A stretch of DNA of 37,208 nt from a virus (IMGVR_UViG_3300021185_000481:1-37208); one strand, 5' to 3'; counted from the stretch's first letter, positions 5,711 through 37,208 are shown. The notes: generated from the letters alone by a model not told the origin. A program made the numbers and translations.

Positions 5711-6662
5711 TAGAGCAGTAATAGAGATTAACGGTGGTTGTAACTACTCGTGTACTATGTGTCCACAGGACATGCGTACTGGTGGACGAGACAAAAAGTT
5801 TCTGAAGAAGATGGGACTAGAGGACTTTGAGAGGAATGTTGCAGACTGTGCCAAGCATGGACTACGAGTTGTCAACCTAGAGGGTAGTGGTGAACCCACA
5901 CTGAATAGAAACCTACCCGAATACATTAAGATCGTAAAGAAGTATGGAGCAAAGTGTTTCATGTTCTCTAATGGATTCCGTATGTCTGGTCAGTTTATGA
6001 GAGACTGTGTTGACGCAGGATTGGACTTCTATCGATTCTCTTTCATCGGATACAGTCCAGAGAAGTATGACGAGTGGATGCATAATATTATTGGAGGAAA
6101 CTTCAACACCATCGTCAATAATATTCGTGAGATGAAAGCATATGTGGATGAGACTGGAAGTGACTGTGTGGTCGCAACCTATCACTTGATTACTGACAAC
6201 GATAACCTAAATAGTGAACTCCAACAGTATAAAAAGTTGGTCAACGACCTTGGGGTCAAAACAGAAATTTGGAAGATGCACAACTGGTCTGGTGTATATG
6301 AGATCGGTGTCAACGAAAGAAAAGGTGAGGTAAAAACCTGTGGCAGACCCTTTAGTCCTGATGTTGTTATTCGTGCTGGCGGTCTTGACGGTAATACTGG
6401 TGCTGTTGCGCCGTGTTGCCAAGTCCTCGGAAGAGATGAAGAAGCAGTTCTTGGACATACTAGCAAAAACACCATTGAAGAAATCTGGGAAGGAGAAGAG
6501 TACACCAAACTCCGTGAGGATCATACCACTGGCGATTACCCTGATTACTGTCGTAGTTGTGACTTCCTTCTTGATGACCCCGAAGTTCTAGTCTACACTA
6601 ACCATGAACGTGATCTAATGAAGATGCACGGAACTGAGTTTGACCTAAATGATTACCGATAA
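5700..6662 (+). CDS. Radical SAM/SPASM-type enzyme
   Basis: The 320-residue protein has the radical SAM cluster motif CxxxCxxC (C14, C18, C21) and the SAM-binding block LEGSGEPTLN at 60-69. The C-terminal part has the cysteines of a SPASM-like auxiliary cluster domain: C214, C239, C240, C284 and C287 (CRSC). Such enzymes use S-adenosylmethionine to make a 5'-deoxyadenosyl radical and modify peptides, sugars or alcohols. No small precursor peptide is obvious beside it, and its neighbours are glycosyltransferases, so a sugar or cofactor substrate is plausible. Its start overlaps the previous gene by 11 bases and its end overlaps the next by 14. Confidence 0.88.
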   Translation: MKIDRAVIEINGGCNYSCTMCPQDMRTGGRDKKFLKKMGLEDFERNVADCAKHGLRVVNLEGSGEPTLNRNLPEYIKIVKKYGAKCFMFSNGFRMSGQFMRDCVDAGLDFYRFSFIGYSPEKYDEWMHNIIGGNFNTIVNNIREMKAYVDETGSDCVVATYHLITDNDNLNSELQQYKKLVNDLGVKTEIWKMHNWSGVYEIGVNERKGEVKTCGRPFSPDVVIRAGGLDGNTGAVAPCCQVLGRDEEAVLGHTSKNTIEEIWEGEEYTKLREDHTTGDYPDYCRSCDFLLDDPEVLVYTNHERDLMKMHGTEFDLNDYR

Positions 6663-12760: not shown

Positions 12761-13376
12761 AGAACTGTTTGACAATTATGATTGTGATAAGGGTACAAGT
12801 AAACACCACTATTACAAGGACTATGAACCATATTTTAAGGAATTGAGAAACGAACCTCTAAACTTCCTTGAGATAGGAACATTCAATGGTGCATCGACCC
12901 GTGCCTTTCATGATTACTTTCCCAATGCGAACATCTACACCATAGATATCTTTGAAAGAACTAATCCAAATGATTTGGAAATCTTAAATAAAGATCGAGT
13001 ACACTGGATAAAGGCAGATTCTATGAGTGCGACTCTTCCCCAAAAGATTAAAAGTGAATGGGGTGATGTTGAGTTTGATTTCATTATCGATGACGGAGCG
13101 CATTGGCCTGAAGCAAACAGATTGACATTCGAGAATCTTGTACCTTTTCTAAAGGATGACGGTACATACTTTATTGAAGATGTATGGCCGATGGACATAA
13201 TGAGTAGTGAAGAATTGAATAATAAATGGTTGAAGGGTAGACCTGATAAGTATGATATACTGAAATACAACCGTTTCATGTCGGCACTAGACCCATATGA
13301 AGTTACACAACACGACCGCAGAAGTGAAACCAAACAAGGTGACACATACATTATAGCGATAAAAAATAATGATTAA
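12753..13376 (+). CDS. Class I methyltransferase, macrocin O-methyltransferase-like
   Basis: The 207-residue protein has motif I FLEIGTFNGAS at 38-48, an acidic strand-two end (TIDIFE) and the block FIIDDGAHWPEA. The latter is typical of the macrocin/TylF and Methyltransf_24 group that methylates sugar hydroxyls. Starting at ATG 12753 is preferred over an upstream in-frame ATG at 12717, because the latter lies deep in the sulfotransferase gene and adds a non-conserved leader. It fits with sulfotransferases and glycosyltransferases as a tailoring enzyme. It ends inside the next gene's first codons. Confidence 0.82.
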   Translation: MLKELFDNYDCDKGTSKHHYYKDYEPYFKELRNEPLNFLEIGTFNGASTRAFHDYFPNANIYTIDIFERTNPNDLEILNKDRVHWIKADSMSATLPQKIKSEWGDVEFDFIIDDGAHWPEANRLTFENLVPFLKDDGTYFIEDVWPMDIMSSEELNNKWLKGRPDKYDILKYNRFMSALDPYEVTQHDRRSETKQGDTYIIAIKNND

Positions 13377-14715
13377 ACTAGTACTATTTGATTTAGACGG
13401 TGTCCTTGTTGACACCAAGAAGATGCACTTTTATGCACTGAACGAAGCATTAGAAGATAATGGATATCCCAAAATTACCCTAGAAGACCATCTGTCAAAA
13501 TATGACGGACTTCCGACAATAGATAAGTTGGAAATGATGGGTATTGTGGGAGAGATGCAAAGGAGGATTAGCATACACAAACAATCTCGCACGTATATAA
13601 AACTGAATAGCATTATGCCTAACCCCGACATTACAGAGGTGTTTGCTAATCTAAAACAGGATGGGTACAAGATAGCGATCTGTTCTAATGCAATGGATAA
13701 AACTGTGACGAAATGTGTGAATGGGTTAGAAATACAATCCTATGTAGATATGATACAGTCTAGCACTGATGTGGACAATCCTAAACCACATCCTCAAATG
13801 TGGTGGAACGTAATGTCAGAGTACGGAGTATATCCCGAAGAGTGTGTCATCATTGAGGATTCGCCAAAAGGTCTTGCATCGGCATACCATTCTGGTGTTC
13901 CTCATACACAGATTATACGAGTAGATTCTCCAGATGATATCAATATGGATATCGTAAAACAAGTAAGGGGTTCCAGAGATACGAGGGCAAAGTGGGTGGA
14001 TAAGAAGATGAATATATTAATACCGATGGCGGGTGCGGGTAGTCGTTTCGCTAAAGCAGGATACACCTTCCCCAAACCACTGATTGATGTCAACGGCAAA
14101 CCAATGATTCAGACTGTGGTAGAGAACATCAATATCGATGCGAACTACATTTTTATTGTACAGAAGGAACACCGTGAGAAGTATAACCTAGACAATATGT
14201 TGGGTCTAATTGCACCCGACTGTAAGATTGTAGAGGTGGATGGTGTGACCGAAGGTGCCGCATGTACGACACTACTTGCCGAGGAGTATATTGACAATGA
14301 CCAACCATTGTTTATTGCAAACTCTGACCAGTGGGTGAACTGGAATTCACTTGACTTCATCTACAAGATGAATGAACTGAAGGCGGATGGTGGTATTGTT
14401 ACTTTCAAAGCAACACATCCAAAATGGAGTTACGCTGCGGTTGATAATGATGGCATGGTTACCGAGGTTGCAGAGAAGAACCCAATCAGTGACAATGCGA
14501 CTGTGGGGTTCTACTACTGGAAAGAGGGACAAGACTACGTAGAGTCTGCAAAAGATATGATCGCAATGGACAAGAGAGTGAATGGTGAGTTCTATGTGTG
14601 TCCTGTATTCAATCAAGCAATCTTGATGGGTAAGAAGATATTCACACATAACGTAGAAGAGATGTGGGGTCTTGGTACACCAGAAGACCTTGAGACATAT
14701 CTGCGTGAGTGGTAG
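13369..14715 (+). CDS. Fusion of HAD phosphatase and sugar nucleotidyltransferase
   Basis: This 448-residue protein joins two enzymes. Residues 1 to about 205 are a HAD phosphatase of the beta-phosphoglucomutase group: LFDLDGVLVDT, then CSNAMDKT, KPHPQM and IEDSPKG. From residue 214 a nucleotidyltransferase starts, MNILIPMAGAGSRF, with FPKPLIDVNGKPMI and an acidic pair in ANSDQWV. The second half makes NDP-sugars or similar activated groups from NTP. Met214 (14008) follows TAAGAAG and could be an internal start giving the transferase alone. Fusion implies that one pathway uses both a phosphatase and an activation step. It is the best evidence that the cassette makes its own donor. Confidence 0.87.
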   Translation: MIKLVLFDLDGVLVDTKKMHFYALNEALEDNGYPKITLEDHLSKYDGLPTIDKLEMMGIVGEMQRRISIHKQSRTYIKLNSIMPNPDITEVFANLKQDGYKIAICSNAMDKTVTKCVNGLEIQSYVDMIQSSTDVDNPKPHPQMWWNVMSEYGVYPEECVIIEDSPKGLASAYHSGVPHTQIIRVDSPDDINMDIVKQVRGSRDTRAKWVDKKMNILIPMAGAGSRFAKAGYTFPKPLIDVNGKPMIQTVVENINIDANYIFIVQKEHREKYNLDNMLGLIAPDCKIVEVDGVTEGAACTTLLAEEYIDNDQPLFIANSDQWVNWNSLDFIYKMNELKADGGIVTFKATHPKWSYAAVDNDGMVTEVAEKNPISDNATVGFYYWKEGQDYVESAKDMIAMDKRVNGEFYVCPVFNQAILMGKKIFTHNVEEMWGLGTPEDLETYLREW

Positions 14716-24868: not shown

Positions 24869-25792
24869 ATGTCTTTTGCAAATCTAAAATCTAATTCCCT
24901 AGATGTTTCTAAACTCGCACAAGCGGCACAAGAAGTCTCAGGGGTAACTCAATCTAAAAACAAATACGAAGACCTTCGATTCTGGAAACCTACTGTTGAT
25001 GACAATGGTAATGGTTTTGCACAGATTCGATTTCTTCCTGCCGCAGAAGGTCAAGAACTACCTTGGGTACGTTACTTTGATCACTTCTTCAAAGGCCCAA
25101 CTGGTCAGTGGTATGTCGAGAAGTCTCTGACTACTCTCGGTAACAACGATCCAGTGAGTGAACACAACTCTCGTTTGTGGAACTCTGGTATCGATGAAGA
25201 TAAAGAGATCGCACGTAAACAGAAACGTAGACTGCACTATGTGGCAAACATCATGGTAGTATCTGACCCATCCAATCCTGCTAATGAAGGTAAAGTATTC
25301 CTTTACGACTTTGGTAAGAAAATCTTTGATAAGATCATGGATGTAATGCAACCACAATTCCCAGGCGAAACACCTGTGAACCCATTCGACTTCTGGACTG
25401 GTGCTGACTTCCAGTTGAAGATTCGTAATGTTGCGGGTTACAGAAACTATGATAAATCGGAGTTCAAGTCCACTTCTGCATTATTTGATGCGGATGAGAC
25501 TAAACTAGAATCTACTTATAATCAGTTACATGATATGACAGAGTTTGTTGCAGAGTCCTCATACAAGTCTTATGATGAACTGAAGTCACGTCTGGAAGTG
25601 GTACTAGGTCAGTCTACTGGTACTGGTAGTACTGTAAAGAATGATCTGTTGACTCAGACTGCTGAGACTGCACCGATCCGATCTGCGGAACCTACTGTAG
25701 TCTCTCAGACTGCACCAGAACCAACGATCCAAGCATCGGGTGGTGAAGATGACACATTGTCATACTTTGCTAAACTCGCTGCTGAGGACTAA
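24869..25792 (+). CDS. 32: gp32-like single-strand DNA-binding protein
   Basis: The 307-residue protein shows the gp32 OB-fold core: YEDLRFWKPTVDDNGNGFAQIRFLP, WVRYFDHFFKG, GQWYVEKSLTTLG and PVSEHNSRLWNS, then RRLHYVANIMVVSDP and KIFDKIMDVMQP. A flexible middle leads to an acidic tail, GEDDTLSYFAKLAAED, used by gp32 to contact replication partners. The zinc ligands of T4 gp32 are absent; the protein has no cysteine at all. CGGAGAA lies before the start. It should coat single-stranded DNA in replication and repair, and it is read from its own promoter to a strong terminator. Confidence 0.93.
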   Translation: MSFANLKSNSLDVSKLAQAAQEVSGVTQSKNKYEDLRFWKPTVDDNGNGFAQIRFLPAAEGQELPWVRYFDHFFKGPTGQWYVEKSLTTLGNNDPVSEHNSRLWNSGIDEDKEIARKQKRRLHYVANIMVVSDPSNPANEGKVFLYDFGKKIFDKIMDVMQPQFPGETPVNPFDFWTGADFQLKIRNVAGYRNYDKSEFKSTSALFDADETKLESTYNQLHDMTEFVAESSYKSYDELKSRLEVVLGQSTGTGSTVKNDLLTQTAETAPIRSAEPTVVSQTAPEPTIQASGGEDDTLSYFAKLAAED

Positions 25793-25794
25793 TC

Positions 25795-25914
25795 ATGTAT
25801 CACTTGTATACTGAGAATGGTTCTTATTCGGAGACAAGTCTTGTGAGGTTGCTGTTCGCAGTAATCTCACACAGATTCCATCACTTTGTAAAGGGTGAAG
25901 GTTTCCGAGACTAA
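25795..25914 (+). CDS. Small hypothetical protein, 39 residues
   Basis: The frame follows gp32 after two bases, with TGAGGA overlapping the gp32 end as a binding site. The product starts MYHLYTENGSYSETSLVRLL and ends SHRFHHFVKGEGFRD, an aromatic and histidine-rich sequence. It is closely followed by the terminator. Size and position suggest a true gp32-operon micro-protein, but no family is certain. Confidence 0.58.
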   Translation: MYHLYTENGSYSETSLVRLLFAVISHRFHHFVKGEGFRD

Positions 25915-25951
25915 AGCATCCTTGCCTTAGGATAAACCGTTATGGTTATAG

Positions 25952-25977
25952 GGGTCTCTTCGGAGACCCTTTTTTTT
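25952..25977 (+). terminator. Strong intrinsic terminator after gp32
   Basis: GGGTCTC (25952-25958) pairs with GAGACCC (25963-25969) around the stable TTCG tetraloop and is followed by eight T residues (25970-25977). This is a textbook Rho-independent terminator. It ends the gp32 transcript just before the convergent tape measure gene, whose stop codon lies in the T-run. The reverse direction lacks a T-run, so it acts on the + strand only. Confidence 0.93.
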
Positions 25978-27625
25978 ATGCGAATCTTGTCAACCCATCA
26001 AAGTTATCTACTGCGCCAGTAGGAGCATCAACATTGACATTACTGGAACTGTTGTTTGTGGTTGTGGGTGCGTTAATGGTCTGAACTGCCATGGATGTTG
26101 CGGTTTGTTTTCCTTCATTTGCTATCTTTTCTTCCTGAGTCGCATCTTTGACCGCATCAGCACTGATCGGAGGGTTGGGTTTTATCTCAGTTTCTTTTTC
26201 TTTTGATGCTTCTAGTTCTGCACGTTTTTCTTTTCGTGCAGATACTGCGTCACCGACACCAGTGTCAAACATCATTGCACTTGACATTTTTCTGAGTGAA
26301 CTTGCTCCTGATTGTGCTATATCCAAAGGTATTTTTTCTAAAAGAGAGGCAATACCATTAATCATTGCACGTATAGGAGCGGTTATTGCATTTACCAAAC
26401 CACCGACTACGACCCCTACCATCTTACCGAAATCAAATTTACCAGTTTCGTCTTTCATTGCATCAAAGACACCCAATAATGAATCTGTGATTGTGTTGAA
26501 CAAACCACCAATCATATCGGAGAATGAGAACGAATCCAGAATTTCTGAGAAGTTCTCAAACCCAAGTTTACCTGCTATCCAACTCACGATGTTCTTGAGT
26601 AGGTCAAGTGGCATTCCAACAATTCCTATCAAGACTCCACTGATTGCACCAAGGACACCACCAAGTATTCCACCCGACTCAAATCCTGCTTTGAATCCTT
26701 TGAACGCATCAACCATTGTCATTATGATAGTAAGAGGGAATAAGACTACACGACCAAGAGTTCTGAATATTTTAAAGAATCCACCAAAGGATTGTTTCAG
26801 TGTGGTGAAAACCTTTTTAACTTTCTTTGCCGTATCTTTGATCTTTGAAGCAGTATCACCCGATGTCTTTGCCGCACCTGTAACAGAGTCTTTTAGTTGC
26901 TTGATGTCATCAACAAAACCACGGAATGGTTTTAATAATTTACCAATTAACTTTGCCGCATTTTCAACAAACGTTAACTTCCTAAACTTTCCGGCAATAC
27001 CACGTAATCCCACATTGATGTTTCGGAAACCATTGGTAAATGCTTGACGGATATTGGTAGCAAGTCTTGTCAGTCTTCCACCAAGACCTTTTGCCCAATC
27101 CTTCATTTGCTCAATTCTCTTTGCAATTCTTGCAATACCGTTAGTAAATACTTTTCTTATACGGTTAAATTGGTTCTGAAGTTTCTTACCTGTTTCGGGG
27201 AAGAATTTATTAACGAATAGTCTGAATGGTGCTAACACTAATTTTGTTATAGACCTGACCATTTTCACCATAGTCTTGGTAAACGGACTCAATATTAATT
27301 TTGCGGCACGAACAAAACCTTCAACGATACCCACTGCGAGACCCGCAATTGCGGCAGTGATACCTGCGATCATTCCAAGAATACCCATACCCTTGGTGTC
27401 CGACATAAGTTGACCGAGATCAGGTAAACCACCTGCCGCTGCTACTTTCTCCTCTCGTTTTTCTTCTAGTTTATCACCTGCTTGGTTCTTGAGGTCTTTG
27501 AAGTACTTACCAAACATTTTAGACAACGCACTGACTTCAGATGCGACCTCTTTGGTCACACTGCGTGATTCTTGGTTTTCTTGTTTGGTCACCTCAATCA
27601 GATGACCTATACTTTTCTCTGCCAT
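25976..27625 (-). CDS. Tail tape measure protein
   Basis: The 549-residue protein is long, helical and repetitive, with many AxxF/GxxF and K-rich helices and Gly-rich hydrophobic segments near residues 80-102 and about 320-345 that could insert in membrane. It follows gp26/gp51, as tape measures follow tail chaperones in many phages. The C-terminus NAPTTTNNSSSNVNVDAPTG is of a type seen in marine phages. At about 0.15 nm per residue it would set a tail near 80 nm, an inference from general tape-measure scaling. AGGA precedes its ATG and overlaps the gp51 stop. Sequence identity to T4 gp29 is not obvious. Confidence 0.8.
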   Translation of the reverse strand: MAEKSIGHLIEVTKQENQESRSVTKEVASEVSALSKMFGKYFKDLKNQAGDKLEEKREEKVAAAGGLPDLGQLMSDTKGMGILGMIAGITAAIAGLAVGIVEGFVRAAKLILSPFTKTMVKMVRSITKLVLAPFRLFVNKFFPETGKKLQNQFNRIRKVFTNGIARIAKRIEQMKDWAKGLGGRLTRLATNIRQAFTNGFRNINVGLRGIAGKFRKLTFVENAAKLIGKLLKPFRGFVDDIKQLKDSVTGAAKTSGDTASKIKDTAKKVKKVFTTLKQSFGGFFKIFRTLGRVVLFPLTIIMTMVDAFKGFKAGFESGGILGGVLGAISGVLIGIVGMPLDLLKNIVSWIAGKLGFENFSEILDSFSFSDMIGGLFNTITDSLLGVFDAMKDETGKFDFGKMVGVVVGGLVNAITAPIRAMINGIASLLEKIPLDIAQSGASSLRKMSSAMMFDTGVGDAVSARKEKRAELEASKEKETEIKPNPPISADAVKDATQEEKIANEGKQTATSMAVQTINAPTTTNNSSSNVNVDAPTGAVDNFDGLTRFA

Positions 27626-27630
27626 TATTC

Positions 27631-27828
27631 CTATCTCTGTCGTTGACGTTCTTCTTGTTCGTGACGTTCTTTTTCTTCTTTAAGATGCTCTACTAGTAAA
27701 GCAACATAAACTTCCCTCTCAAACGGCATCATATTTTCTAGTTCTGTTAACGAGTAATTATGATGTTGCATCATGCCAAAGTTAGTCTTGTAATGGTTTA
27801 CAAGGTTATCGTGTGAGAGGCATACTAA
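27631..27828 (-). CDS. 51: gp51-like tail chaperone extension in the -1 frame
   Basis: This 65-codon frame runs open from the T8 slip site at the end of gp26. It contains HHNYSLTELENMMPFEREVYVALL and a charged helix ending EERQRQR. It resembles the short gp51 relatives next to gp26 and, in general style, the T part of lambda GT. The only in-frame ATGs, at 27774 and 27771, have no Shine-Dalgarno sequence, so independent initiation is doubtful. A -1 frameshift would give a fusion of about 300 residues spanning 28532-27631. The symbol gp51 rests on position and short motifs. Confidence 0.68.
   Translation of the reverse strand, partial: LVCLSHDNLVNHYKTNFGMMQHHNYSLTELENMMPFEREVYVALLVEHLKEEKERHEQEERQRQR
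27787..27804 (-). other. Hairpin downstream of the slip site
   Basis: CTTGTAA and TTACAAG form a perfect 7-bp stem around a four-base loop (ACCA in the RNA). The stem begins 23 bases after the slip run, longer than the usual 5-9 base spacing for a frameshift stimulator. Its role is uncertain. Confidence 0.4.
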
Positions 27829-28532
27829 AAAAAATCTTGGATGCCCTTCAGTGTTCTGTTCTGTTCCGTACCGCACTCTGGACATTTAAAGTCAATGTCG
27901 TGTTGCATTGATGGTGCAGATTGCATAAACTCACCAATCTTTTCAAACTGTGAGTTGGTCATTGAATCAATAAACTCTTGCATCTCTCCAGAACTAACCT
28001 CACTCGCATCAACTCTCTCGTCCTCGGTCATAATTGTCTTAATACACTTACCGATCATCTTGAAACCAAACTCAGTTTCTGACATATCCTCAGAAAAGTT
28101 ATTGAGAAAATCGTGAAACGCTGGGTACTTTAATTCCAAGGTGACACTTGGTGTCAATTCAACTATAGGACTTACATCAGGAAGGTCAACTTTAATATCC
28201 TGTAGGTTGATCTTACATTCTGTTGAATGTCCACACTCTTCATTCTCACACTTGATATTAATATCAGCAGTCTCACCAACTGAACGTGAACGAATCTGCG
28301 TAAACATATACTCAACATCAAATACTGTGAGGTTTTTTGCTTTCACATCTTCACAACAAATTACAACAACATCAATCATTGCTCTCATTGCTTGTTTCTG
28401 ATCACCACCCTCAAATGCAAGTAGAAGAATCTTTTCTTCTTTTACAAGGTAAGGTCTGTATAGAACCTTCTTTCCCGTTGATGGTTGTACCATCTCGTGG
28501 GATGGGGTTGTGTTTAACTTAGGTAATGCCAT
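27825..28532 (-). CDS. 26: gp26-like baseplate hub/tail chaperone protein
   Basis: The 235-residue protein matches the T4 gp26 type (T4_baseplate family). It has VLYRPYLVKEEKILLLAFEGGD near the start, a two-part zinc site from C-x4-C (in KCENEECGH) and C-x2-C (in KCPECG), and MTNSQFEKIGEFM before the end. ATG 28532 has GGAG nine bases upstream; the in-frame TTG at 28547 is rejected. Its last codons are GAT TTT TTT TAG, forming a slippery T8. It lies between the tail tube initiator and the tape measure, the place of tail assembly chaperones in other phages. Confidence 0.85.
   Translation of the reverse strand: MALPKLNTTPSHEMVQPSTGKKVLYRPYLVKEEKILLLAFEGGDQKQAMRAMIDVVVICCEDVKAKNLTVFDVEYMFTQIRSRSVGETADINIKCENEECGHSTECKINLQDIKVDLPDVSPIVELTPSVTLELKYPAFHDFLNNFSEDMSETEFGFKMIGKCIKTIMTEDERVDASEVSSGEMQEFIDSMTNSQFEKIGEFMQSAPSMQHDIDFKCPECGTEQNRTLKGIQDFF
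27827..27834 (-). other. T8 slippery run, candidate -1 frameshift site
   Basis: Eight T residues end gp26. Read in its frame as GAT-TTT-TTT-TAG, they contain a T-TTT-TTT heptamer in the phase needed for -1 slippage by two tRNA-Phe. After a shift the next codons are TTA GTA TGC and the gp51-like frame stays open to 27631. The stop codon directly after the slip site would favour pausing. Confidence 0.7.
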
Positions 28533-28556
28533 TATATTATTCTCCAAATAATAATG

Positions 28557-29255
28557 TTATAAAAATTTTCTAATCAATTCGCCTGCGAGACCTTCGATAA
28601 ATCCACTATCGATTGCGTCTCCACCTTTGGACTTCCAGTTCTTGTACGATAATTGTACCGATACTTCAAGTAACTGTCCGTCATCACTCAACTCAATTGA
28701 ATTCATTGTTGTTGGGTATGCTTTATCTAGGACACATGTATAGGTGATATCATCACCGAATACTAAATTCAAGTCAAACTGACCCTGTGCAAGATCAAAT
28801 GGCCCTAGTCTTGGTAATCTATTACGAAGGTAAGATGGAATCTTTCCTGCGTCATAAAGTTCTTTCTTTGCGATAGGGAATGCGGTTCCCTTCTTAATGT
28901 GTTGGATAATGACTGGATGTGTGTAGTCGTTAAAGTATCCAACCTGTTGGGTCTCTTGGTTGACTGCCAGATTCTGCCATGCCTCAAAATATTGTCTTAT
29001 TTTCATATCATTGAGACAATGGAATGTCAACTGCATATCTTCTACCGCATGACCATATGCAATCTTGGTGGTATGTAGACCCATTTGTTTTTCGGTTGAC
29101 AGTATTTGTCTGCCGGGCAATGATGTTGCCTTACACAACAGGTTCATCTCCCGTGCGTGTGGTGTAAGAGGTGGTAGGAAAATCTTGAACAGATTCCCCA
29201 TTGCCATACCACCACCTTTACCAATCTCGGATTTGAATTCATCAATTGCGATCAT
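28557..29255 (-). CDS. 54: gp19-fold tail protein, probable gp54 tube initiator
   Basis: The 232-residue protein has the T4 gp19/gp54 tail tube pattern: NLFKIFLPP, LLCKATSLPGRQI, AYGHAVEDMQLTFHCLNDMKIRQYFEAW and a late VSVQLSYKNW. That is the fold shared by tail tube, tube cap and tube initiator. It sits with gp26, gp4, gp48 and gp53 genes, which favours gp54 rather than the major tube gp19, usually encoded near the sheath gene. It is shorter than T4 gp54 (320 residues). The start overlaps the previous stop (ATGA). Confidence 0.72.
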   Translation of the reverse strand: MIAIDEFKSEIGKGGGMAMGNLFKIFLPPLTPHAREMNLLCKATSLPGRQILSTEKQMGLHTTKIAYGHAVEDMQLTFHCLNDMKIRQYFEAWQNLAVNQETQQVGYFNDYTHPVIIQHIKKGTAFPIAKKELYDAGKIPSYLRNRLPRLGPFDLAQGQFDLNLVFGDDITYTCVLDKAYPTTMNSIELSDDGQLLEVSVQLSYKNWKSKGGDAIDSGFIEGLAGELIRKFL

Positions 29256-29848
29256 GCGTTTCTACCTATTCTTTTTCGTGAGTCTGCGTAAACTTTCTTA
29301 GAGTTCGCCTTTCTGAACTGTGCAGTCGGTAAGAAGGTTGCAATCTCCCACTCGGGCATGGGTACTTCTGCGAACTTACTCTGGACGTGTTTAGTCAGAT
29401 AATGTTTAAAACAGGGTTCGTAGAATTTCATCTTAGAGATTGCCTGTAACTTTTTGTATGTGATCTGAAACTTTGCATTGTCACCCGCCTTCATGTTGGC
29501 GGTTTCCATCAATGCATCTAACATCTTTGCACGAAGAATGGGTGGAAGGTAATGTAGGTTCAATCCGTAGAATCCACCTTCCGCAGGCCCAACCACCACA
29601 ATCAAAGGAAACAAATCGTAGTACGGAAGTTTATCTTTGTGCTTGGGATCATAGAAGAACATCTGCATACTACCAATCACACCATTTCTATTTCTCTGAA
29701 TGAGAGGGTCTTCTTTTATTAACTTCTCTCGGTTTATGTTTCGCATATTCTTTGCTTTGTTCATAAACCATGCACGAGACTCATCGGTTCGTGGTGTAAC
29801 ACCCGCACGGAACGCCTGTAGTTCTAGTCTGTTGAATATATTACTCAT
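29252..29848 (-). CDS. Conserved T4-type structural-region protein
   Basis: The 198-residue protein contains SRAWFMNKAKNMRNINREKL, MQMFFYDPKHKDKLPYYDLFP, GGFYGLNLHYLPPILRAKML and PEWEIATFLPTAQF. I recognise this as a family conserved in marine T4-like phages beside gp4. Its position invites comparison with the gp2 DNA end protector, but I cannot confirm that. A late promoter ends only five bases before its ATG, so that promoter would give a leaderless transcript; translation from the gp4 transcript is more likely. It overlaps the next gene by four bases. Confidence 0.7.
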   Translation of the reverse strand: MSNIFNRLELQAFRAGVTPRTDESRAWFMNKAKNMRNINREKLIKEDPLIQRNRNGVIGSMQMFFYDPKHKDKLPYYDLFPLIVVVGPAEGGFYGLNLHYLPPILRAKMLDALMETANMKAGDNAKFQITYKKLQAISKMKFYEPCFKHYLTKHVQSKFAEVPMPEWEIATFLPTAQFRKANSKKVYADSRKRIGRNA

Positions 29849-29853
29849 GTCTT

Positions 29854-29861
29854 TATTTATA
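29854..29861 (-). promoter_or_regulatory. T4-type late promoter motif at the gp4 stop, - strand
   Basis: TATAAATA (- strand) overlaps the stop codon of gp4 and ends five bases before the ATG at 29848. In T4 the start site lies about six bases beyond the octamer, which puts it at the start codon. It may be a functional leaderless promoter or a chance match. Confidence 0.5.
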
Positions 29862-30363
29862 CCTTTTTCACACGTTTCTTACGAAAAGGTTTCAAAGTTT
29901 TCTTCAGGGGTTTCAACGGTTTTGTTGATTTGGGAATAAGAGACTTCAATGGTTCATTCTTCTCAGTCCAGATGACAAAGTGCCATCCACGATCCTTTGC
30001 AAACTCTTCTGCGGCAGACCACTTGTTCTGGTTCTTAACAAAGGTCATTGCCTCGTTCAAATACCTCTTGGTGTTGTTTCTACCTGTAGGTGGTCTGCGT
30101 TCTTTGTCTGGTTTTATCTCAACCAACCAAGTTGCACCATGTTCCCAAACTATTTTCAAGTCCATAAAATATCTATGATAACGCTTGTCAACCTCATATA
30201 GATATGGTATAATGACTTCTTCAGAAGACCACTTCTTTATGTCAGGATTTTCGTCACACCACTTGAATGCGTGTTTCTCCCATAGAGATCGATAGACTAC
30301 AGCAGTGTAGTCACCTTGGTACTTCTTTGGATTTTTTACTCTGTACCTACCCGAATATGCCAT
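29857..30363 (-). CDS. 4: gp4-like head completion nuclease
   Basis: The 168-residue protein opens AYSGRYRVKNPKKYQGDYT, then VVYRSLWEKHAFKWCDENPDIKKWSSEEVIIPY, HRYFMDLKI and LVEIKPDKE. This is the T4 gp4 (gp50.65) head completion family, with a TnsA-like nuclease core whose residues include E in SLWEKH, D in YFMDL and E-x-K in VEIKP. A basic tail with KPLKPLKKTLKPFRKKRVKKV-like repeats follows. It probably prepares the packaged head for tail joining. The late promoter at 30400-30407 serves it; AAGG lies before the ATG. Confidence 0.88.
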   Translation of the reverse strand: MAYSGRYRVKNPKKYQGDYTAVVYRSLWEKHAFKWCDENPDIKKWSSEEVIIPYLYEVDKRYHRYFMDLKIVWEHGATWLVEIKPDKERRPPTGRNNTKRYLNEAMTFVKNQNKWSAAEEFAKDRGWHFVIWTEKNEPLKSLIPKSTKPLKPLKKTLKPFRKKRVKKV

Positions 30364-30371
30364 AAAAACCT

Positions 30372-30379
30372 TATAAATA
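30372..30379 (+). promoter_or_regulatory. T4-type late promoter, + strand
   Basis: An exact TATAAATA lies 40 bases before gp48 at 30419. It faces the + strand baseplate block 30419 to the end of the window. It lies 20 bases from an inverted copy for the - strand, and the two point at each other. Confidence 0.8.
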
Positions 30380-30399
30380 AAGATAATGAATTTCTAACT

Positions 30400-30407
30400 T
30401 ATTTATA
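30400..30407 (-). promoter_or_regulatory. T4-type late promoter, - strand
   Basis: TATTTATA on the + strand reads TATAAATA on the - strand, 36 bases before the gp4 start at 30363. It faces the tail block gp4 to tape measure. Its start site should fall near 30394, inside the area melted by the opposing promoter. Confidence 0.8.
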
Positions 30408-30418
30408 GAGAAACTAAC

Positions 30419-31435
30419 ATGGCAGATGAAGAAACCAAAGATGAGACTAAACCCCAAGGTGTGAAATCCGCACTAGAGGCGAAAAACCTTGAGTATCCTC
30501 TAAACAATGCGGATGACTACAAAGGTCGTATTGTCTTTAATGTGATGAAAGAGGCAGAAACTGATCTTGGTAATGTCTTAGGTCAAGTGGAAAAGATAGC
30601 GCAAAAAGGTCTCACCTCAACGAGTGAAACGGTTTCTGAAGTCACTGGTTCTAAGAACCAAGCAGATAATGTTCAGGCGGTCGATGCATTTCAAGGTGAC
30701 CAAGAACAATTTGCAACTAAGGTAAAACAAAGACCACTGAAAAAGACTGATCGACAAGTATCTCTTTATCTCCCTGTCGGTTTACAATATCGTGATGCTG
30801 TTGCGTATGACAATGTGGACTTGGGTGGACTGGGTGGTGCAGCAGAAGCCTCACTAGTTGGTGGAGGAAGTGCATTGGGAGGTATAGTTGAGGGTGGAAT
30901 GAAAACCTTGACCGCTGCACTGAAGGGTTCGGCAAACAAAGACGTTGCCAAAGTAGCGGGGGTGAAACTCGTATCCGCATTACCAGATGAGATTCAGGGT
31001 GCGTTTAAGTCTGCCGCAGGGGTGACATCAAACCCCAACACACGAGTACTGTTCAAACAAGTAAACCTCCGAGAGTTCTCGTTTGTATTCAAATTCATTC
31101 CTACCTCTGCAAAAGAAGCAGAAGAAGTAAAGGAAATTGTAAAACTATTCCGAACAGAACTATATCCAGAAAACATTATTCAACCTATGCCCGGAGAAAG
31201 TGCAATCTCTATCGGTTATCGTTTTCCAAACAAGTTTCAGATCAATATAGAATATGATGGTGAACAGATTGCCACAAAGATTAAACCGTGTTACCTCCGA
31301 GACGTGAGTGTGACATATAACAACACTGCGATGTCAATGCATTCTGACGGTAACTTCCAAGAAACTGAAATGTCATTGGCATTCCAAGAAAGTAGAACAC
31401 TCAACAGAAGAGATGTTGAAGAGGACGGATTCTAA
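30419..31435 (+). CDS. 48: gp48-like baseplate tail tube cap
   Basis: The 338-residue protein has a variable N-terminus and a low-complexity Gly/Ala middle (LGGLGGAAEASLVGGGSALGG). It then has a conserved gp48-type C-terminal half: LFKQVNLREFSFVFKFIP, AEEVKEIVKLFRTELYPE, IGYRFPNKFQI and SVTYNNTAMSMHSDGNFQETEMSLAF. This is a gp19-related fold that caps the baseplate and seeds the tail tube. It is close to T4 gp48 (364 residues). It is the first gene after the late promoter at 30372 and couples to gp53 by TAATG. Confidence 0.83.
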   Translation: MADEETKDETKPQGVKSALEAKNLEYPLNNADDYKGRIVFNVMKEAETDLGNVLGQVEKIAQKGLTSTSETVSEVTGSKNQADNVQAVDAFQGDQEQFATKVKQRPLKKTDRQVSLYLPVGLQYRDAVAYDNVDLGGLGGAAEASLVGGGSALGGIVEGGMKTLTAALKGSANKDVAKVAGVKLVSALPDEIQGAFKSAAGVTSNPNTRVLFKQVNLREFSFVFKFIPTSAKEAEEVKEIVKLFRTELYPENIIQPMPGESAISIGYRFPNKFQINIEYDGEQIATKIKPCYLRDVSVTYNNTAMSMHSDGNFQETEMSLAFQESRTLNRRDVEEDGF

Positions 31436-32184
31436 TGGGAACAAAATATTTCAGAAACTTTGGTTTAAAGTCATACCGATTTGGTAACAATGAATCGCCA
31501 GTCCTCTTTAATGATTTATCTCAATACGTTGATGTTATTGATGGTATCAAGGACAGTATTAGTTTCTCTACCAAACATACAATTATTGCGGGGGATCGTC
31601 CAGATACGCTGTCCTTTAAGTTATATGGGACTACGGACTATTACTGGACATTCTTCTTGATGAATGACCACATCCGTGAATCAGGATGGCCCATCGATCA
31701 ACCACATCTTTTTGATGAGATGAAATCAAGATATCCACATCGAACCGTCACAAGTAATTCTGTCCTCGCATCTGACTTTACTGTGGGAACGACTGTAACC
31801 GGAAGTGTGAGTGGTACTGTCGGCACTATCTTAAAACGAGACCTTGACATGGGTCAACTTGTTATCGAAACAGTAAACGATGAAACATTCACCTCGGATG
31901 AGTCTATTCAATACACCGCTACAGATGGTGCATTCTACACTGCACAATTGGTCGCAGAATCAGCACAGTACAATGCGGTTCATCACTACGAAGATGCCGA
32001 TGGTGTTCATATAGATTTGCCACTATACGACTTTTTAAACGCACCCTCTGATGCAATAGCAGTCACCTATCGGAATCGTGTCGAAGATAGAAATGATGAG
32101 TTGAAACAAATTGCTGTCTTGAAACAATCAGTAATTGAAAGAGTGGTCACTGAGTTTAATAACTTCCACAAACAGGTTACTTAA
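31435..32184 (+). CDS. 53: gp53-like baseplate wedge protein
   Basis: The 249-residue protein contains DRPDTLSFKLYGTTDYYWTFFLMNDHIRESGWPI, the typical LysM-like core of T4 gp53, in which the wedge is asked to place a stable W-rich fold near the plate. An N-terminal VDVIDGIKDS strand and a C-terminal VLKQSVIERVVTEFNNF helix follow the family. An insert around residues 108-180, with TVTGSVSGTVGTI, makes it longer than T4 gp53 (196). It starts in the gp48 stop and ends in the gp27 start (TAATG twice). Confidence 0.83.
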   Translation: MGTKYFRNFGLKSYRFGNNESPVLFNDLSQYVDVIDGIKDSISFSTKHTIIAGDRPDTLSFKLYGTTDYYWTFFLMNDHIRESGWPIDQPHLFDEMKSRYPHRTVTSNSVLASDFTVGTTVTGSVSGTVGTILKRDLDMGQLVIETVNDETFTSDESIQYTATDGAFYTAQLVAESAQYNAVHHYEDADGVHIDLPLYDFLNAPSDAIAVTYRNRVEDRNDELKQIAVLKQSVIERVVTEFNNFHKQVT

Positions 32185-33554
32185 TGAGTCAGTACAAAAC
32201 CACACAGTCTCAACAGTTCAAGATTACCAAGGCAACGATCACAGCAGATCGTCTTGGTGGTATTGACGGTAATAAATTAGATGTTCGTACATCTATTGCC
32301 GAACTGAGTATCTTTGAGAGTCTGGACAAACCTTATCTTACAGGTCAAGTGGTTATTCTGGATGACAAGGCACTCTTTGATAAGATTAACTTTCAAGGAA
32401 CCGAGAGATTTACGATAGACATGGCATCGGTAGACAATGACTTGAGTACAGTGATGTCTCGTACATTCATTATGACAGGTATCGAAGATTCCGTCAAGTC
32501 AAATGACAACGGAAAGTCTAGTATATATTCGTTCACATTAATGGACGAACACGCATTTTTATCATCACTCAAAAAGATTAGTAAGTCGTTCAATGGCAAT
32601 ATTGATGAGATAATGATCAAGTTGCTTGCAACCGAAATGAAACTAGACATCGATACTTCATACCTTGCATTACCCAATGGTGGTGGAACTTCACTTCCAG
32701 TACAGACGAATATGAGAGGAATAATTCCGAACCTATCTCCCATAGATGCTATCAAGTGGTTATGCAATCGTGCGACAACTGTAACTGGTTCACCTTTCTT
32801 TGTGTATGCATCAATGCATGATAACAATCTGCGTTTAGGTAATCTAGATTCCATGTTATCACAAAAAGCATGGAACTCAAGACTACCCTACACATATAAC
32901 CCCGCCAACATATCAAGTGCAGAGAGTCAAAGTGAATTTGAAAGAACTTTCACCATCAAGGCACTCAAGACTTCAGCAATGGCGAATACTCTGAACTTAG
33001 TACAACAAGGTGCGGTGGGTGCTTCTTTGGACAACACTAATCTAAATACTGGTATGGTGTCCAAGTCTCACCACAGTATAAGAAAGGTTCTAGATAGATT
33101 GAAGACTAGTAATGTTATTGGTGATCATCAGAATGTCTTTGATCCAATGTTTCAGATGGGAGATGTTTTAGTTGATGATTATGATTCAATGAAGTATCAT
33201 ACAGTGACATCAACAGGAACATATGGTCGAAAGAAAAGTTATCACGATGAGTATGAAACAAATCACTTTAAGAAGAAACTAGAGAGTCGTTCCATACTCA
33301 ACCATATGTACAAGAATATGTTAAATGTAGTTGTAGAGGGTGCTGGGTTTATTATCTCAAAGGCATCGGTTGGGGACATTGTTAATTTAAAGGTTGTGAA
33401 TGATAATGTGGAAAGTTCTTCTTCTGCGAATGAAGATGACCTGATCGATAAAGCAAAGTCTGGTGATTTTATTATCTATGATACGAGACATACATTCTCA
33501 GGGACACAACATACTGTTTCTATGAATCTTTGTAAACTGGAGAAACTTCCGTAA
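32184..33554 (+). CDS. 27: gp27-like baseplate hub protein
   Basis: The 456-residue protein contains SIAELSIFESLDKPYLTGQVVI, FTLMDEHAFLSSLKKISKS, LSPIDAIKWLCNRATTV and FFVYASMHDNNLRLGNL. These match the domain order of marine-type gp27 hub proteins, a ring on which the gp5 spike is seated. The length is close to T4 gp27 (391), with extra C-terminal residues. It lies directly before the gp5-type gene and is coupled to it (TAATG), as in the hub-spike complex that they would form. Confidence 0.8.
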   Translation: MSQYKTTQSQQFKITKATITADRLGGIDGNKLDVRTSIAELSIFESLDKPYLTGQVVILDDKALFDKINFQGTERFTIDMASVDNDLSTVMSRTFIMTGIEDSVKSNDNGKSSIYSFTLMDEHAFLSSLKKISKSFNGNIDEIMIKLLATEMKLDIDTSYLALPNGGGTSLPVQTNMRGIIPNLSPIDAIKWLCNRATTVTGSPFFVYASMHDNNLRLGNLDSMLSQKAWNSRLPYTYNPANISSAESQSEFERTFTIKALKTSAMANTLNLVQQGAVGASLDNTNLNTGMVSKSHHSIRKVLDRLKTSNVIGDHQNVFDPMFQMGDVLVDDYDSMKYHTVTSTGTYGRKKSYHDEYETNHFKKKLESRSILNHMYKNMLNVVVEGAGFIISKASVGDIVNLKVVNDNVESSSSANEDDLIDKAKSGDFIIYDTRHTFSGTQHTVSMNLCKLEKLP

Positions 33555-34411
33555 TGAAACCAATTCTATCTGAGTTCTATGGTGACAACACACGATGGTT
33601 CATTGCGACTGTTGTAGATGCTTCACCACCACATGGTTTCGAGGGTCGTGTGAAGATTCGTGTTCATGGATTACACACAGAATCTACTCGACTGATTCCT
33701 CAAGCAGACTTACCTTGGGCACAATGCGTAGTTCCTACTACCGAGGGTGGTGCATCTGGTATAGGAAGAATGCCTCAACTACAACCAAGTGCATTAGTAT
33801 TTGGTATGTTCATGGATGGGGTAAACTCACAGACACCCATCGTGTTAGGTTCACTTCCTCATGTGGAGTTTCCTACCTCCGTGCAACTGGGTCAGGCAGA
33901 TGAAGATATTGTGGAAGATAACAAACCAGAAGGACTTTGGGATAAAATCACCGACACATTCAAACCGAAGGTAACTGATATTCAGAACGATAACTCTGGT
34001 AATATTTCTTCTAGAGTAAAAATTGCACGAGAGAATACCGCAGTAAAGTTCTTCTTGAATGTAGGATATACCGAGAAACAAGCGATAGGTATTACTGCGG
34101 GACTTTCACAAGTATCTGGTATGCGTACTGGTATTACTCCACAATCAAATGGTGTCGGTGCATATGACGATAGACGATATAATGATCTTCTTAGGTTCTC
34201 CAACGATAATAATCAATTCCTCACACAATTGTCCTTTGTTGCTTATGAATTAAATGGTACTCAGTCTTCTGCCAACATACGATTGTTACAATCTGACAGA
34301 CTCGACAATAAAGGTATTTGTCACATAGTGGGTAAATATTACTTGAACAAACCCAACGATGTGAAACAAATAGAATTGCAAGCAAGACGATTGACGGATA
34401 GGATAGTATAA
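33554..34411 (+). CDS. 5: gp5-type OB protein with degenerate tail-lysozyme domain
   Basis: The 285-residue protein has an N-terminal gp5 OB fold at about 10-105 (FEGRVKIRVHGLHT, DLPWAQCVVPTTEGGASGIG, VFGMFMDGVNSQTPIVLGSLP). From about residue 160 a second domain matches phage tail lysozymes (Phage_lysozyme2 type): VKFFLNVGYTEKQAIGITAGL, GAYDDRRYNDLLRFS and QLSFVAYELNG. The usual Glu in the GNLxxES block is V187 here (GLSQVSG), and the G-I-A-Q-W block is missing, so it is probably inactive. The beta-helix of gp5 is absent and appears as a separate gene at 36410. Confidence 0.83.
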   Translation: MKPILSEFYGDNTRWFIATVVDASPPHGFEGRVKIRVHGLHTESTRLIPQADLPWAQCVVPTTEGGASGIGRMPQLQPSALVFGMFMDGVNSQTPIVLGSLPHVEFPTSVQLGQADEDIVEDNKPEGLWDKITDTFKPKVTDIQNDNSGNISSRVKIARENTAVKFFLNVGYTEKQAIGITAGLSQVSGMRTGITPQSNGVGAYDDRRYNDLLRFSNDNNQFLTQLSFVAYELNGTQSSANIRLLQSDRLDNKGICHIVGKYYLNKPNDVKQIELQARRLTDRIV

Positions 34412-36420
34412 TGTCGTTAGATAAAAATAAATTAAATAACACCCTAAAGAGTGAGTCAAAAAGAACTACTCTAAAGACAAGTAGATTCCAAGAGAAGGCA
34501 CAGTCTTCTATTGACGAGACCTATGCTAAGAGAACAACTCTTGTTGGACAAACAGATGGTGAGATTCTTGGTGGTATAAAAGCACTGGGAGCATCTACCA
34601 ACTCAAGTGAAGAAGTTATAACCAGTGCGGTTGGTGCGATTACTGATGCGTTTCCTTCAACGGGTGCTTTGGGTAACCTTATTGTTGCCACCAAAGATAC
34701 CGTAGTAGACTCTAATGGTGAGTTCCTACGATTCAAATCAGATTTAGATTCGGCAGGGGGTCTTGTTCTCAATACATTAGGTATAGACTCTGATGGTAGT
34801 GGTAATCTATCCGTATTACGAGGTGCGGGTCGTGATTCCGCAGACGAGGCACGAGGGTTTGGTACTTTAGAAACTACTGTAACCGCACTGACAGGACTTC
34901 CCGCAATCAAGGTAAGTAATCCCACTTCTGCCCTCGCAGTTATCACTGATGGTACTGCCGAAAGTATTGCCGAATGTGTTGCGATTGCGGATGACAAAAA
35001 AGCAGAAGCATATGCATCATTGATCGAATTCACCACTGCTGTAGATGCGGCAAAACCCAAATCAGCGGGGGGTGGAGGAATCATGGGATTCATAGCAACG
35101 GTCACGAGTGCTATCAGTGTGGCAGGTAATTTAGCAAACACTGTTAGTGCCATATCACCTGTTGCCGCAATAAATGACGCAATCCAAACGGCACAGGATG
35201 CCGTCAACAACACAACCTTTGTTAAAGAATTAAATGCTACAGTTCAAGGAATAAAAGACAGTCTTCCTACTCTAGCAGATGTTGAGGCGGTGATTGGAAC
35301 TGATCTGAAAGATATAAAAGCTGCTATCAATGAAGCAACTGATGCGATAGATACTTTCAATCGTGAGTTTGATTCTCGTATTGACAAGGGATTGTCTGGA
35401 GTTCTTCAAGATGTGGCGGAAGGTATTTCGGGTAATGCTGCAGAATTCATCTCCAGTCTTGTGGATGGTGGTATTGTTTCGTCCGAAAACGAAAGACGAG
35501 AAATACTCGAACAGTTTACCAGTGGTGATCCCAAACAAGAGAAGGAAGCGGTCAAGACACTAACACAAAAGTCTGAAAATGTATCAGACCGTATGAAAGG
35601 AATTCTTGCTACAGACGAAAACACATCTAGTTCACTAGAGATGCAAGTTCAGATGATCGAAAAGGCAAGGGCACAAGGTGTTCCCGAACAAGAGATTGCG
35701 AAAGCACAACAAGAGATTTCAACTATCGATGATAGGATGCGAGGTCTTGATACCACAGTTGGTGGTACTGTTGTTATTGACGCAAGTCTGTACGAAGAAG
35801 GTGAACCTATTATGACGGACAAGTGGGATGGTCGTAATAGTCCAGAAGATGCCTTTACCTATGTTTCATCGGTAGAAGAACTAGACGCAGAGTTTACTAA
35901 TGTGAGTCGAGACGTGACCGAGGTTGTTGTTCACGCCACAGAGACTCACACCAATAAAGACATCGGTTCTATAGAGATAAATAATGTACAGAATGATCTG
36001 GGACATGACGGTATCGGATATCATTATGTTATACGAAGGGATGGTAGATTGCAACGAGGCAGACCAGTGAACATACAGGGTGACCACGCACCAGTAAACG
36101 GTCACGACAGATTTTCTATTGGTATTGTGATGGTTGGTGGTATTAATGTTTCTACGGGTGAAGACAACCCAACGGACTACCTGTCTTCTCGGTCATTTAC
36201 AAGAGAACAGTTTACGACACTAGAGAAATTTTTGGCTGGGTATTATCGTAGATTCCCAGGCGGTCAAGTCTTTGGTCACAATGATCTTGACATTATCGAA
36301 TCTGACCCATATTTTGATGTGGTAGATTATGTAGAGTCTGTGTTCAGAAAACAGAACAGAACAGACGATCCATTGAATGCTTCACCATTGAGTCCATCGG
36401 AGATGAACAGTGACAACTAA
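34411..36420 (+). CDS. Hub protein with C-terminal zinc amidase domain
   Basis: The 669-residue protein has a long Ala/Ser/Asp-rich helical N-terminal part (to about 490), with a hydrophobic segment near 215-250. It ends in an N-acetylmuramoyl-L-alanine amidase (Amidase_2/T7 lysozyme fold) at about 500-660. Zinc ligands are H508 (VVVHATE), H623 (FGHNDLD) and D632 (SDPYF); Y537 in GYHY is also kept. The residue equal to T7 lysozyme K128 is E630, which is unusual. By position it belongs to the spike complex and would cut peptidoglycan during entry. It may replace the lost lysozyme of its neighbour. It overlaps the next gene by 11 bases. Confidence 0.83.
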   Translation: MSLDKNKLNNTLKSESKRTTLKTSRFQEKAQSSIDETYAKRTTLVGQTDGEILGGIKALGASTNSSEEVITSAVGAITDAFPSTGALGNLIVATKDTVVDSNGEFLRFKSDLDSAGGLVLNTLGIDSDGSGNLSVLRGAGRDSADEARGFGTLETTVTALTGLPAIKVSNPTSALAVITDGTAESIAECVAIADDKKAEAYASLIEFTTAVDAAKPKSAGGGGIMGFIATVTSAISVAGNLANTVSAISPVAAINDAIQTAQDAVNNTTFVKELNATVQGIKDSLPTLADVEAVIGTDLKDIKAAINEATDAIDTFNREFDSRIDKGLSGVLQDVAEGISGNAAEFISSLVDGGIVSSENERREILEQFTSGDPKQEKEAVKTLTQKSENVSDRMKGILATDENTSSSLEMQVQMIEKARAQGVPEQEIAKAQQEISTIDDRMRGLDTTVGGTVVIDASLYEEGEPIMTDKWDGRNSPEDAFTYVSSVEELDAEFTNVSRDVTEVVVHATETHTNKDIGSIEINNVQNDLGHDGIGYHYVIRRDGRLQRGRPVNIQGDHAPVNGHDRFSIGIVMVGGINVSTGEDNPTDYLSSRSFTREQFTTLEKFLAGYYRRFPGGQVFGHNDLDIIESDPYFDVVDYVESVFRKQNRTDDPLNASPLSPSEMNSDN

Positions 36421-37208
36421 AAAAGACAATTACAGATTAAGAGTCGATACCCTTGGGGAAGGACTTGAGAATACTTTGGGTGTTGCCCAAGATGGTATGC
36501 AAGACCCCACAGGTGAATACCCCAAACGAGATTATAACTATGGGTCATCTATCAATAAGGCATCTCGTGGTTCTAAGATAAACAACCTCTATGTTGGGGG
36601 TGGTGACATTGGTGTGTCCTTGGGTATTGAACCACAGAGACCATCCGAGTATCCATTCAACCAAGTACAAGAGACTATCTCTGGTCATGTTATTGAACAA
36701 GACGATACGCCAGGCGGTGAACGAGTATTAATTAAACACCGTACAGGTGCGGGTGTGGAAATGCGTGCCGATGGTTCTGTTATCATTTCCGCAGTAAACA
36801 ACAAGGTAGAAGTGACTGGTGGTGACCAGACCGTTATCATTGAGGGTAATGGTAATCTCGTGTATCAGGGTAACTTGAACATGAAGGTAACTGGTGACTA
36901 TAATGTTGATGTGGGTGGTAACTATAATCTCAATGTGGCAGGTAGTCTACGAGAGAACATCCTAGAGAATCACCGAACGATCACCACAGGCAATCGTGAA
37001 GAGACTGTCAAGAAGAGTAAGATCAACCGAACAATGAGCACACTTACTGATGTGTGTCTGGGTGAACATAACATTGATATTAAGTTGGATCAGAAGACTG
37101 CGGTTGAGGGTAACATAGAAATTGCGGGTGGAGCATCCGTCTTTGTGTCGGGTGAAGAATCCTTTGCGGTATCTGCCGATGTTGCCAATATGACTGGTGC
37201 CAAGTATG
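36410..37208 (+). CDS. gp5-like beta-helix spike protein (partial)
   Basis: The frame opens at a GTG (36410) with GGAG seven bases upstream and runs off the window after 266 codons. It begins MTTKKDNYRLRVDTLGEGLE. After ISGHVIEQDDTPGGERVLIKHRTG it holds a run of short glycine-marked strands (GNLVYQGNLNMKVTGDYN, VDVGGNYNLNVAG). This pattern is the triple beta-helix of the gp5 needle, also seen in VgrG tips. It has no OB fold or lysozyme, so it seems to be the separated needle of the gene at 33554. The C-terminus and tip are outside the window. Confidence 0.8.
   Translation, partial: MTTKKDNYRLRVDTLGEGLENTLGVAQDGMQDPTGEYPKRDYNYGSSINKASRGSKINNLYVGGGDIGVSLGIEPQRPSEYPFNQVQETISGHVIEQDDTPGGERVLIKHRTGAGVEMRADGSVIISAVNNKVEVTGGDQTVIIEGNGNLVYQGNLNMKVTGDYNVDVGGNYNLNVAGSLRENILENHRTITTGNREETVKKSKINRTMSTLTDVCLGEHNIDIKLDQKTAVEGNIEIAGGASVFVSGEESFAVSADVANMTGAKY

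Follow-up and report, generated by a model that had tools for sequence, protein, structure and literature searches.

The spike of the T4-like phage analysed here is encoded in three overlapping genes, and it is rather likely that these genes represent a divided T4 gp5 in which the muralytic activity has passed from a lysozyme domain lacking its catalytic Glu to an amidase on a separate virion protein, called X in the following. The window, which is the whole stretch of DNA analysed (37,208 bases), corresponds to one complete IMG/VR record and is a genome fragment. The spike locus and its upstream context comprise the following features:

30419..31435, plus strand: gp48-like baseplate tail-tube cap, upstream context (phrog_230, E=2.6e-33)
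31435..32184, plus strand: gp53-like baseplate wedge, context (Pfam Phage_gp53 over the cut-off; phrog_232, E=2.7e-18)
32184..33554, plus strand: hub protein in the gp27 position, 456 aa (phrog_350 'tail protein', E=8e-38, whole length)
33554..34411, plus strand: spike base (OB protein) with a gp5-type OB fold (residues ~11-105) and a predicted dead lysozyme domain of the phi29 gp13 type (142-285)
34112..34114, plus strand: codon of Val187, aligned with the catalytic Glu in live relatives (phi29 gp13 Glu45)
34411..36420, plus strand: protein X, 669 aa, with a helical N-terminal region and a C-terminal Amidase_2; overlaps both neighbours
34411..35850, plus strand: residues 1-480 of X, mostly helical and fast-evolving
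35902..36345, plus strand: T7-lysozyme-like zinc amidase domain, residues 498-645 of X
35932, 36019, 36277, 36298 and 36304: amidase residues H508, Y537, H623, E630 (T7 Lys128 position) and D632, respectively
36410..37208, plus strand: needle, a beta-helix protein with a match to the C-terminal half of phrog_430 gp5 (phrog_430, E=1.3e-30)

The initial annotation had described a spike divided among three overlapping genes, and all three ORFs lie at the coordinates that it gave. The OB and X genes overlap by 1 base (TAATG at 34409-34413) and the X and needle genes by 11 bases, the GTG start of the needle at 36410 being located within the end of the X gene. The unit begins at 33554, however, and not at 34411, where the range of the initial annotation starts. 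The needle ORF is open at the window end (its full length in the homologous locus L003 is 503 aa); the phrog_430 match supports a triple-stranded beta-helix as the predicted form of the needle, and the matches to Gp5_trimer_C and Gp5_C are weak. The initial annotation had proposed to look for the same arrangement in related genomes; OB-X-needle-gp25-gp6 is the gene order of about 80 marine viral contigs, which rules out a sequencing or assembly split of the spike genes, and at least 552 relatives of this lineage were confirmed. To call the amidase "inserted" was loose wording: the amidase fold occurs in all four marine clades and thus is old there, and OB fold and needle are also split in the cultured Rhizobium phage RHph_I1_18. 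Homologs of the hub protein adjoin gp5 in cultured phages. The locus resembles T4 gp5 (1K28) in its OB fold (31-33% identity), its place after the hub gene, its beta-helix needle and the muralytic role of the spike. In T4, however, gp5 is one chain with its own active GH24 lysozyme, whereas in the window there are three genes, the lysozyme is dead and of the phi29 gp13 type, and a protein of its own carries the amidase. Elsewhere in the window, positions 25976-27625 encode on the minus strand, opposite to the baseplate genes, a protein of 549 aa that weakly matches tape-measure families. A Nol-like carbamoyltransferase (3006-4529), a protein with a weak radical-SAM match (5700-6662) and a HAD-like protein (13369-14715) are also encoded, and the predicted products of the first half of the window suggest sugar or surface modification.

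With Pfam, both parts of the OB protein of the window score below threshold (Gp5_OB, 24.6 bits with a cut-off of 25; Phage_lysozyme2, 19.7 bits with a cut-off of 28.2). A profile of 59 sequences of the OB family (A2), in turn, matched the T4 gp5 OB domain (E=2e-16) and the lysozyme of phi29 gp13 (3csr, E=9.5e-5). In the AF2 model, the OB fold of T4 gp5 was recovered with a Z of 10.8, and residues 142-285 (pLDDT ~90) superimposed on 3csr with a Z of 16.1 and an rmsd of 2.4 over 139 residues. The phi29 gp13 type was assigned by the family profile and by the fold, because a phmmer search of the PDB with the lysozyme region of the window alone found no match. The domain is thus of the PF18013 family and not a T4-type GH24 enzyme, as the initial annotation implied. 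When a live homolog is aligned to 3csr, its Glu falls on residue 45 of gp13, which we take to be the catalytic residue. This Glu was absent from all 53 clade-I relatives compared at first and from all 72 scored later, among them the window with Val187, so that the earlier reading of the lysozyme as dead holds at the level of predicted active sites. The domain of the window thus shares the fold of the N-terminal lysozyme of phi29 gp13 (3CSR/3CSQ) and differs from it in lacking this Glu and in being fused to a gp5 OB fold.

The proposed transfer of activity was examined in the distribution of active sites among relatives. An OB protein was present at 247 loci, which yielded 116 distinct sequences, and 89 of these were scored at both active sites. 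The lysozyme Glu is absent and the amidase triad intact in 72, which form clade I with the window, and the reverse combination, Glu present and triad broken, characterizes seven distinct proteins of a sister clade. Both sites are intact in four proteins, which have Lys at the T7 Lys128 position. In the other six the lysozyme domain is absent and the first zinc His is lost; here a CHAP (3), M23 (1) or M15 (2) domain is encoded in the gene preceding the amidase-like one (CHAP by Pfam in L237 and by near-identical sequence in L290 and L291; M23 by Pfam in L234; M15 by Pfam in L241 and by motif in L289). No protein among the 89 has both sites broken, as judged by the zinc triad, without a replacement enzyme. 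After clustering at 80% identity (45 loci), the numbers in the same class order are 34, 5, 2 and 4. The broken amidases are recognizable as homologs: one such X matched the X profile A1 in hhalign (E=2.7e-23), and an HMM built without the sister-clade X proteins found the two most decayed ones at 3e-7 and 9e-5. For X of L235 the hhalign comparison with A1 was not significant, and an HMM built without this sequence found it at 3e-7. These reciprocal states in sister clades support, as far as active-site residues predict activity, the earlier suggestion that the muralytic step moved from a glycosidase to an amidase. That this happened to suit the host wall, as the initial annotation suggested, would be conjecture; a single wall-specific choice is argued against by close relatives with the same layout, which swap CHAP, M23 and M15. 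In the live-lysozyme clade, the gene after the needle (L251:10283-11377) ends in a C-terminal GDSL-like lipase/acylhydrolase domain (22.7 bits, sub-threshold), possibly a further envelope enzyme.

A tree was calculated from OB domain and hub protein columns with the trait columns left out; the method was a quick one, and the branches of the cultured phages are long. The dead-lysozyme proteins form one clade (SH-aLRT 99), and the both-live proteins form another (100) that is sister to it (84). The proteins with live lysozyme and dead amidase group together (98), including one row that was unscored for amidase. On this tree the lysozyme changed state about once within the marine clade and the amidase once or twice. 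Two losses of the amidase are suggested by the different residues broken in the two amidase-dead groups. The simplest reading would be an ancestor in which both enzymes were live, since reactivation of a lost zinc site is improbable. The reciprocal pattern thus reflects few independent events, and it might represent chance and unrelated decay on long branches rather than compensation. We regard this alternative as doubtful but serious: the small number of changes speaks for it, but the both-live clade adjoins the dead-lysozyme clade, the CHAP, M23 or M15 route occurs where the lysozyme is absent and the amidase broken, and the class without any intact enzyme stays empty after 80% clustering as well (0/45).

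In X of the window, Pfam places Amidase_2 at residues 500-625 (E=1.7e-11), and the family profile of the domain matches T7 lysozyme (1LBA) with E=4e-19. The zinc-binding His pair and the Tyr are shared with T7 lysozyme, whereas the third ligand is Asp instead of Cys and Glu takes the position of Lys128. According to the T7 lysozyme alignment the catalytic Tyr is Tyr537 (T7 Tyr46 position) rather than Tyr539. Alternatively, in the window's clade both folds might be structural or bind peptidoglycan; the amidase domain would then hold on to the wall in the manner of PGRPs that lack catalysis, and cutting would fall to another protein of the virion. PGRP folds, some of which bind without catalysis, are among the structural matches of X, and the amidase fold persists without a zinc site in sister clades. 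Moreover, within clade I the T7 Lys128 position is occupied by Glu in 61 of 72 proteins and by Lys in none, and the Tyr537 position, a Tyr in the others, is Phe in seven. However, all 72 clade-I proteins scored retain the triad H508/H623/D632, the domain evolves under a pN/pS of 0.10-0.34, and the large relatives contain neither a GH24 lysozyme nor a second Amidase_2, and we therefore consider a purely binding amidase unlikely. The seven proteins with Phe (L054, L153, L154, L155, L156, L157 and L159) also lack the lysozyme Glu, and no other hydrolase was seen by eye in their X. Judged by these residues, they may have lost both activities and are a possible exception to the pattern of one enzyme always being live. 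In five other relatives, members of one sub-clade, a peptidase M15 domain follows the amidase in X (Peptidase_M15_3 by Pfam in L077 and L081, by motif in L074, L076 and L079); these X proteins are possible two-enzyme lysins. In one large contig (that of L169, G010 C1:42850-43245) the open frame with the amidase has only 392 aa and tblastn matches full X, which may be split or frameshifted there.

That the lysozyme-like domain of clade I still acts, through another acid or a different chemistry, is highly improbable. The fold is retained, and the surrounding residues G200, R208, Q225 and Y263 are invariant across live and dead copies. In the Glu column, however, the dead copies have S, A, V, T, K, I, M, N or W, or are gapped, so that no acid takes the place of the Glu there, and an E occurs within three columns in only one of 53 sequences. 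The domain nevertheless remains under purifying selection (pN/pS 0.14-0.34) and thus probably has a structural role. For the dead amidases of the sister clades, the pN/pS was 0.02-0.32 in three pairs; in the most diverged pair, with sites close to saturation, it was 0.71. That both folds persist although catalysis was lost suggests a structural role.

The position of its gene suggests that X is a virion-associated lysin. The least probable alternative, that X is a lysis endolysin or an accessory lysin located in the tail operon by chance, could be based on the nearest amidase domains of cultured phages, which are mostly annotated as endolysins, but is at odds with the 480-residue N-terminal extension, the gene overlaps with the spike partners, an active-site decay that parallels the lysozyme state in the spike, and the stand-alone M15_3 ORFs of six large contigs. 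These ORFs have endolysin size (157-187 aa), lie away from the tail genes and were found in six of the nine large contigs searched (G001, G002, G003, G005, G010 and G011); the 149-kb relative has a separate M15 endolysin-like gene, and no M15_3 match was obtained in the two large both-live contigs. No GH24 lysozyme was detected in the large relatives, and Amidase_2 occurs at most once per contig, within X. Based on this gene content, X is probably not the endolysin, which also sets it apart from T7 lysozyme. A second intact gp5, which would have spoken against a divided spike, is likewise lacking in the relatives of 149, 144 and 160 kb, each with one gp5-type Gp5_OB domain; the window itself is a fragment.

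The N-terminal 480 residues are the fastest-evolving part of X (pN/pS 0.28-0.62). They contain a conserved helical bundle at residues ~355-445 (35473-35745), which AF2 models with a pLDDT of ~80, as compared to <50 for most of the region. PDB searches with X matched the amidase domain alone and found no known fold for the N-terminal 480 residues. A relationship to tape-measure proteins was rejected (hhalign to the tape-measure-like protein of the window, probability 1%), and a 451-aa neighbour in phage C48C1 showed no relation on comparison. The IMG/VR contig 3300021085_000471 (L002), compared with window positions 25553-36998, is identical up to ~35,000 and then shares 99-100% identity with L003; this switch in the N-terminal half of gene X marks either recombination or a chimeric assembly.

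Under the preferred reading of activity transferred to X, the OB protein would dock the spike on the hub, its lysozyme domain being kept as a structural collar without the catalytic Glu, and the needle would puncture the outer membrane. X itself, which is poorly modelled (pTM 0.34), would be part of the virion and attach through its helical N-terminal region to the complex of OB protein, needle and hub. It would then present a zinc N-acetylmuramoyl-L-alanine amidase that opens the peptidoglycan after tail contraction. Starting from the putative both-live ancestor, the window's clade would have lost its lysozyme and a sister clade its amidase. It is quite possible, although we propose it tentatively, that a wider rule holds for marine T4-like spikes: several wall-hydrolase folds would be lasting structural parts of a single needle complex, catalysis would move among lysozyme, amidase, CHAP, M23 and M15 domains, and inactive domains would be kept while at least one is live. 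The sister clades offer a natural comparison for a change of chemistry in a needle complex without loss of function, and their dead and live pairs make structural roles of spike enzyme folds, apart from catalysis, testable. The annotation of such genes as "tail lysozyme" calls for caution, as their products probably are not lysozymes.

Virion lysins of Gram-negative phages have been described as mostly glycosidases, and amidase lysins as well as two-enzyme lysins were listed solely for phages of Gram-positive hosts in a 2017 review (PMC5380687). The lineage analysed here is an abundant marine one whose T4-like spike carries a predicted amidase, in some members together with an M15 peptidase. 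No publication on the form with split spike, dead lysozyme and separate amidase was found in the literature searched, and this combination is what is new here. In pelagimyophages, divergent gp5 has been reported, its adaptation to the host wall being an assumption in that study (PMC7029224). The gp5 of pelagimyophages and cyanomyophages (HTVC008M, metaG-MbCM1, S-SRM01) resembles the window in its OB fold and marine T4-like origin, but the OB fold is fused with the rest of the spike and no lysozyme domain was seen in the gp5 proteins read. HTVC008M gp5 has 350 aa and little room for an enzyme, and large upstream proteins carry enzymes in these phages according to record annotation and motifs. 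The Anabaena myophage A-1(L) likewise has a spike without enzyme and wall hydrolases on a neighbouring baseplate protein, but there an endoglucanase and a peptidase are carried on the hub (PMC10966104), whereas the amidase of the window is on an additional spike gene. The cultured RHph_I1_18 (L191) is similar in that OB-lysozyme and needle are encoded separately after gp48, gp53 and hub genes; it differs in its live lysozyme (66 bits, Glu present), a 116-aa gene in between and the lack of an amidase. Caulobacter phage Cr30 and Ochrobactrum phage OC have the spike as one chain, and P10VF and OLIVR5 combine OB with CHAP. These differences among RHph_I1_18, Cr30, OC, P10VF, OLIVR5 and HTVC008M indicate that T4-like phages can exchange the enzyme modules of gp5. 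Pfam found no M15 domain in Cr30 gp5; by eye, M15-like motifs were seen in the needle or gp5 of Cr30 (L091:8938-11043), RHph_I1_18 (L191:6248-8155) and OC (L192:4983-7409).
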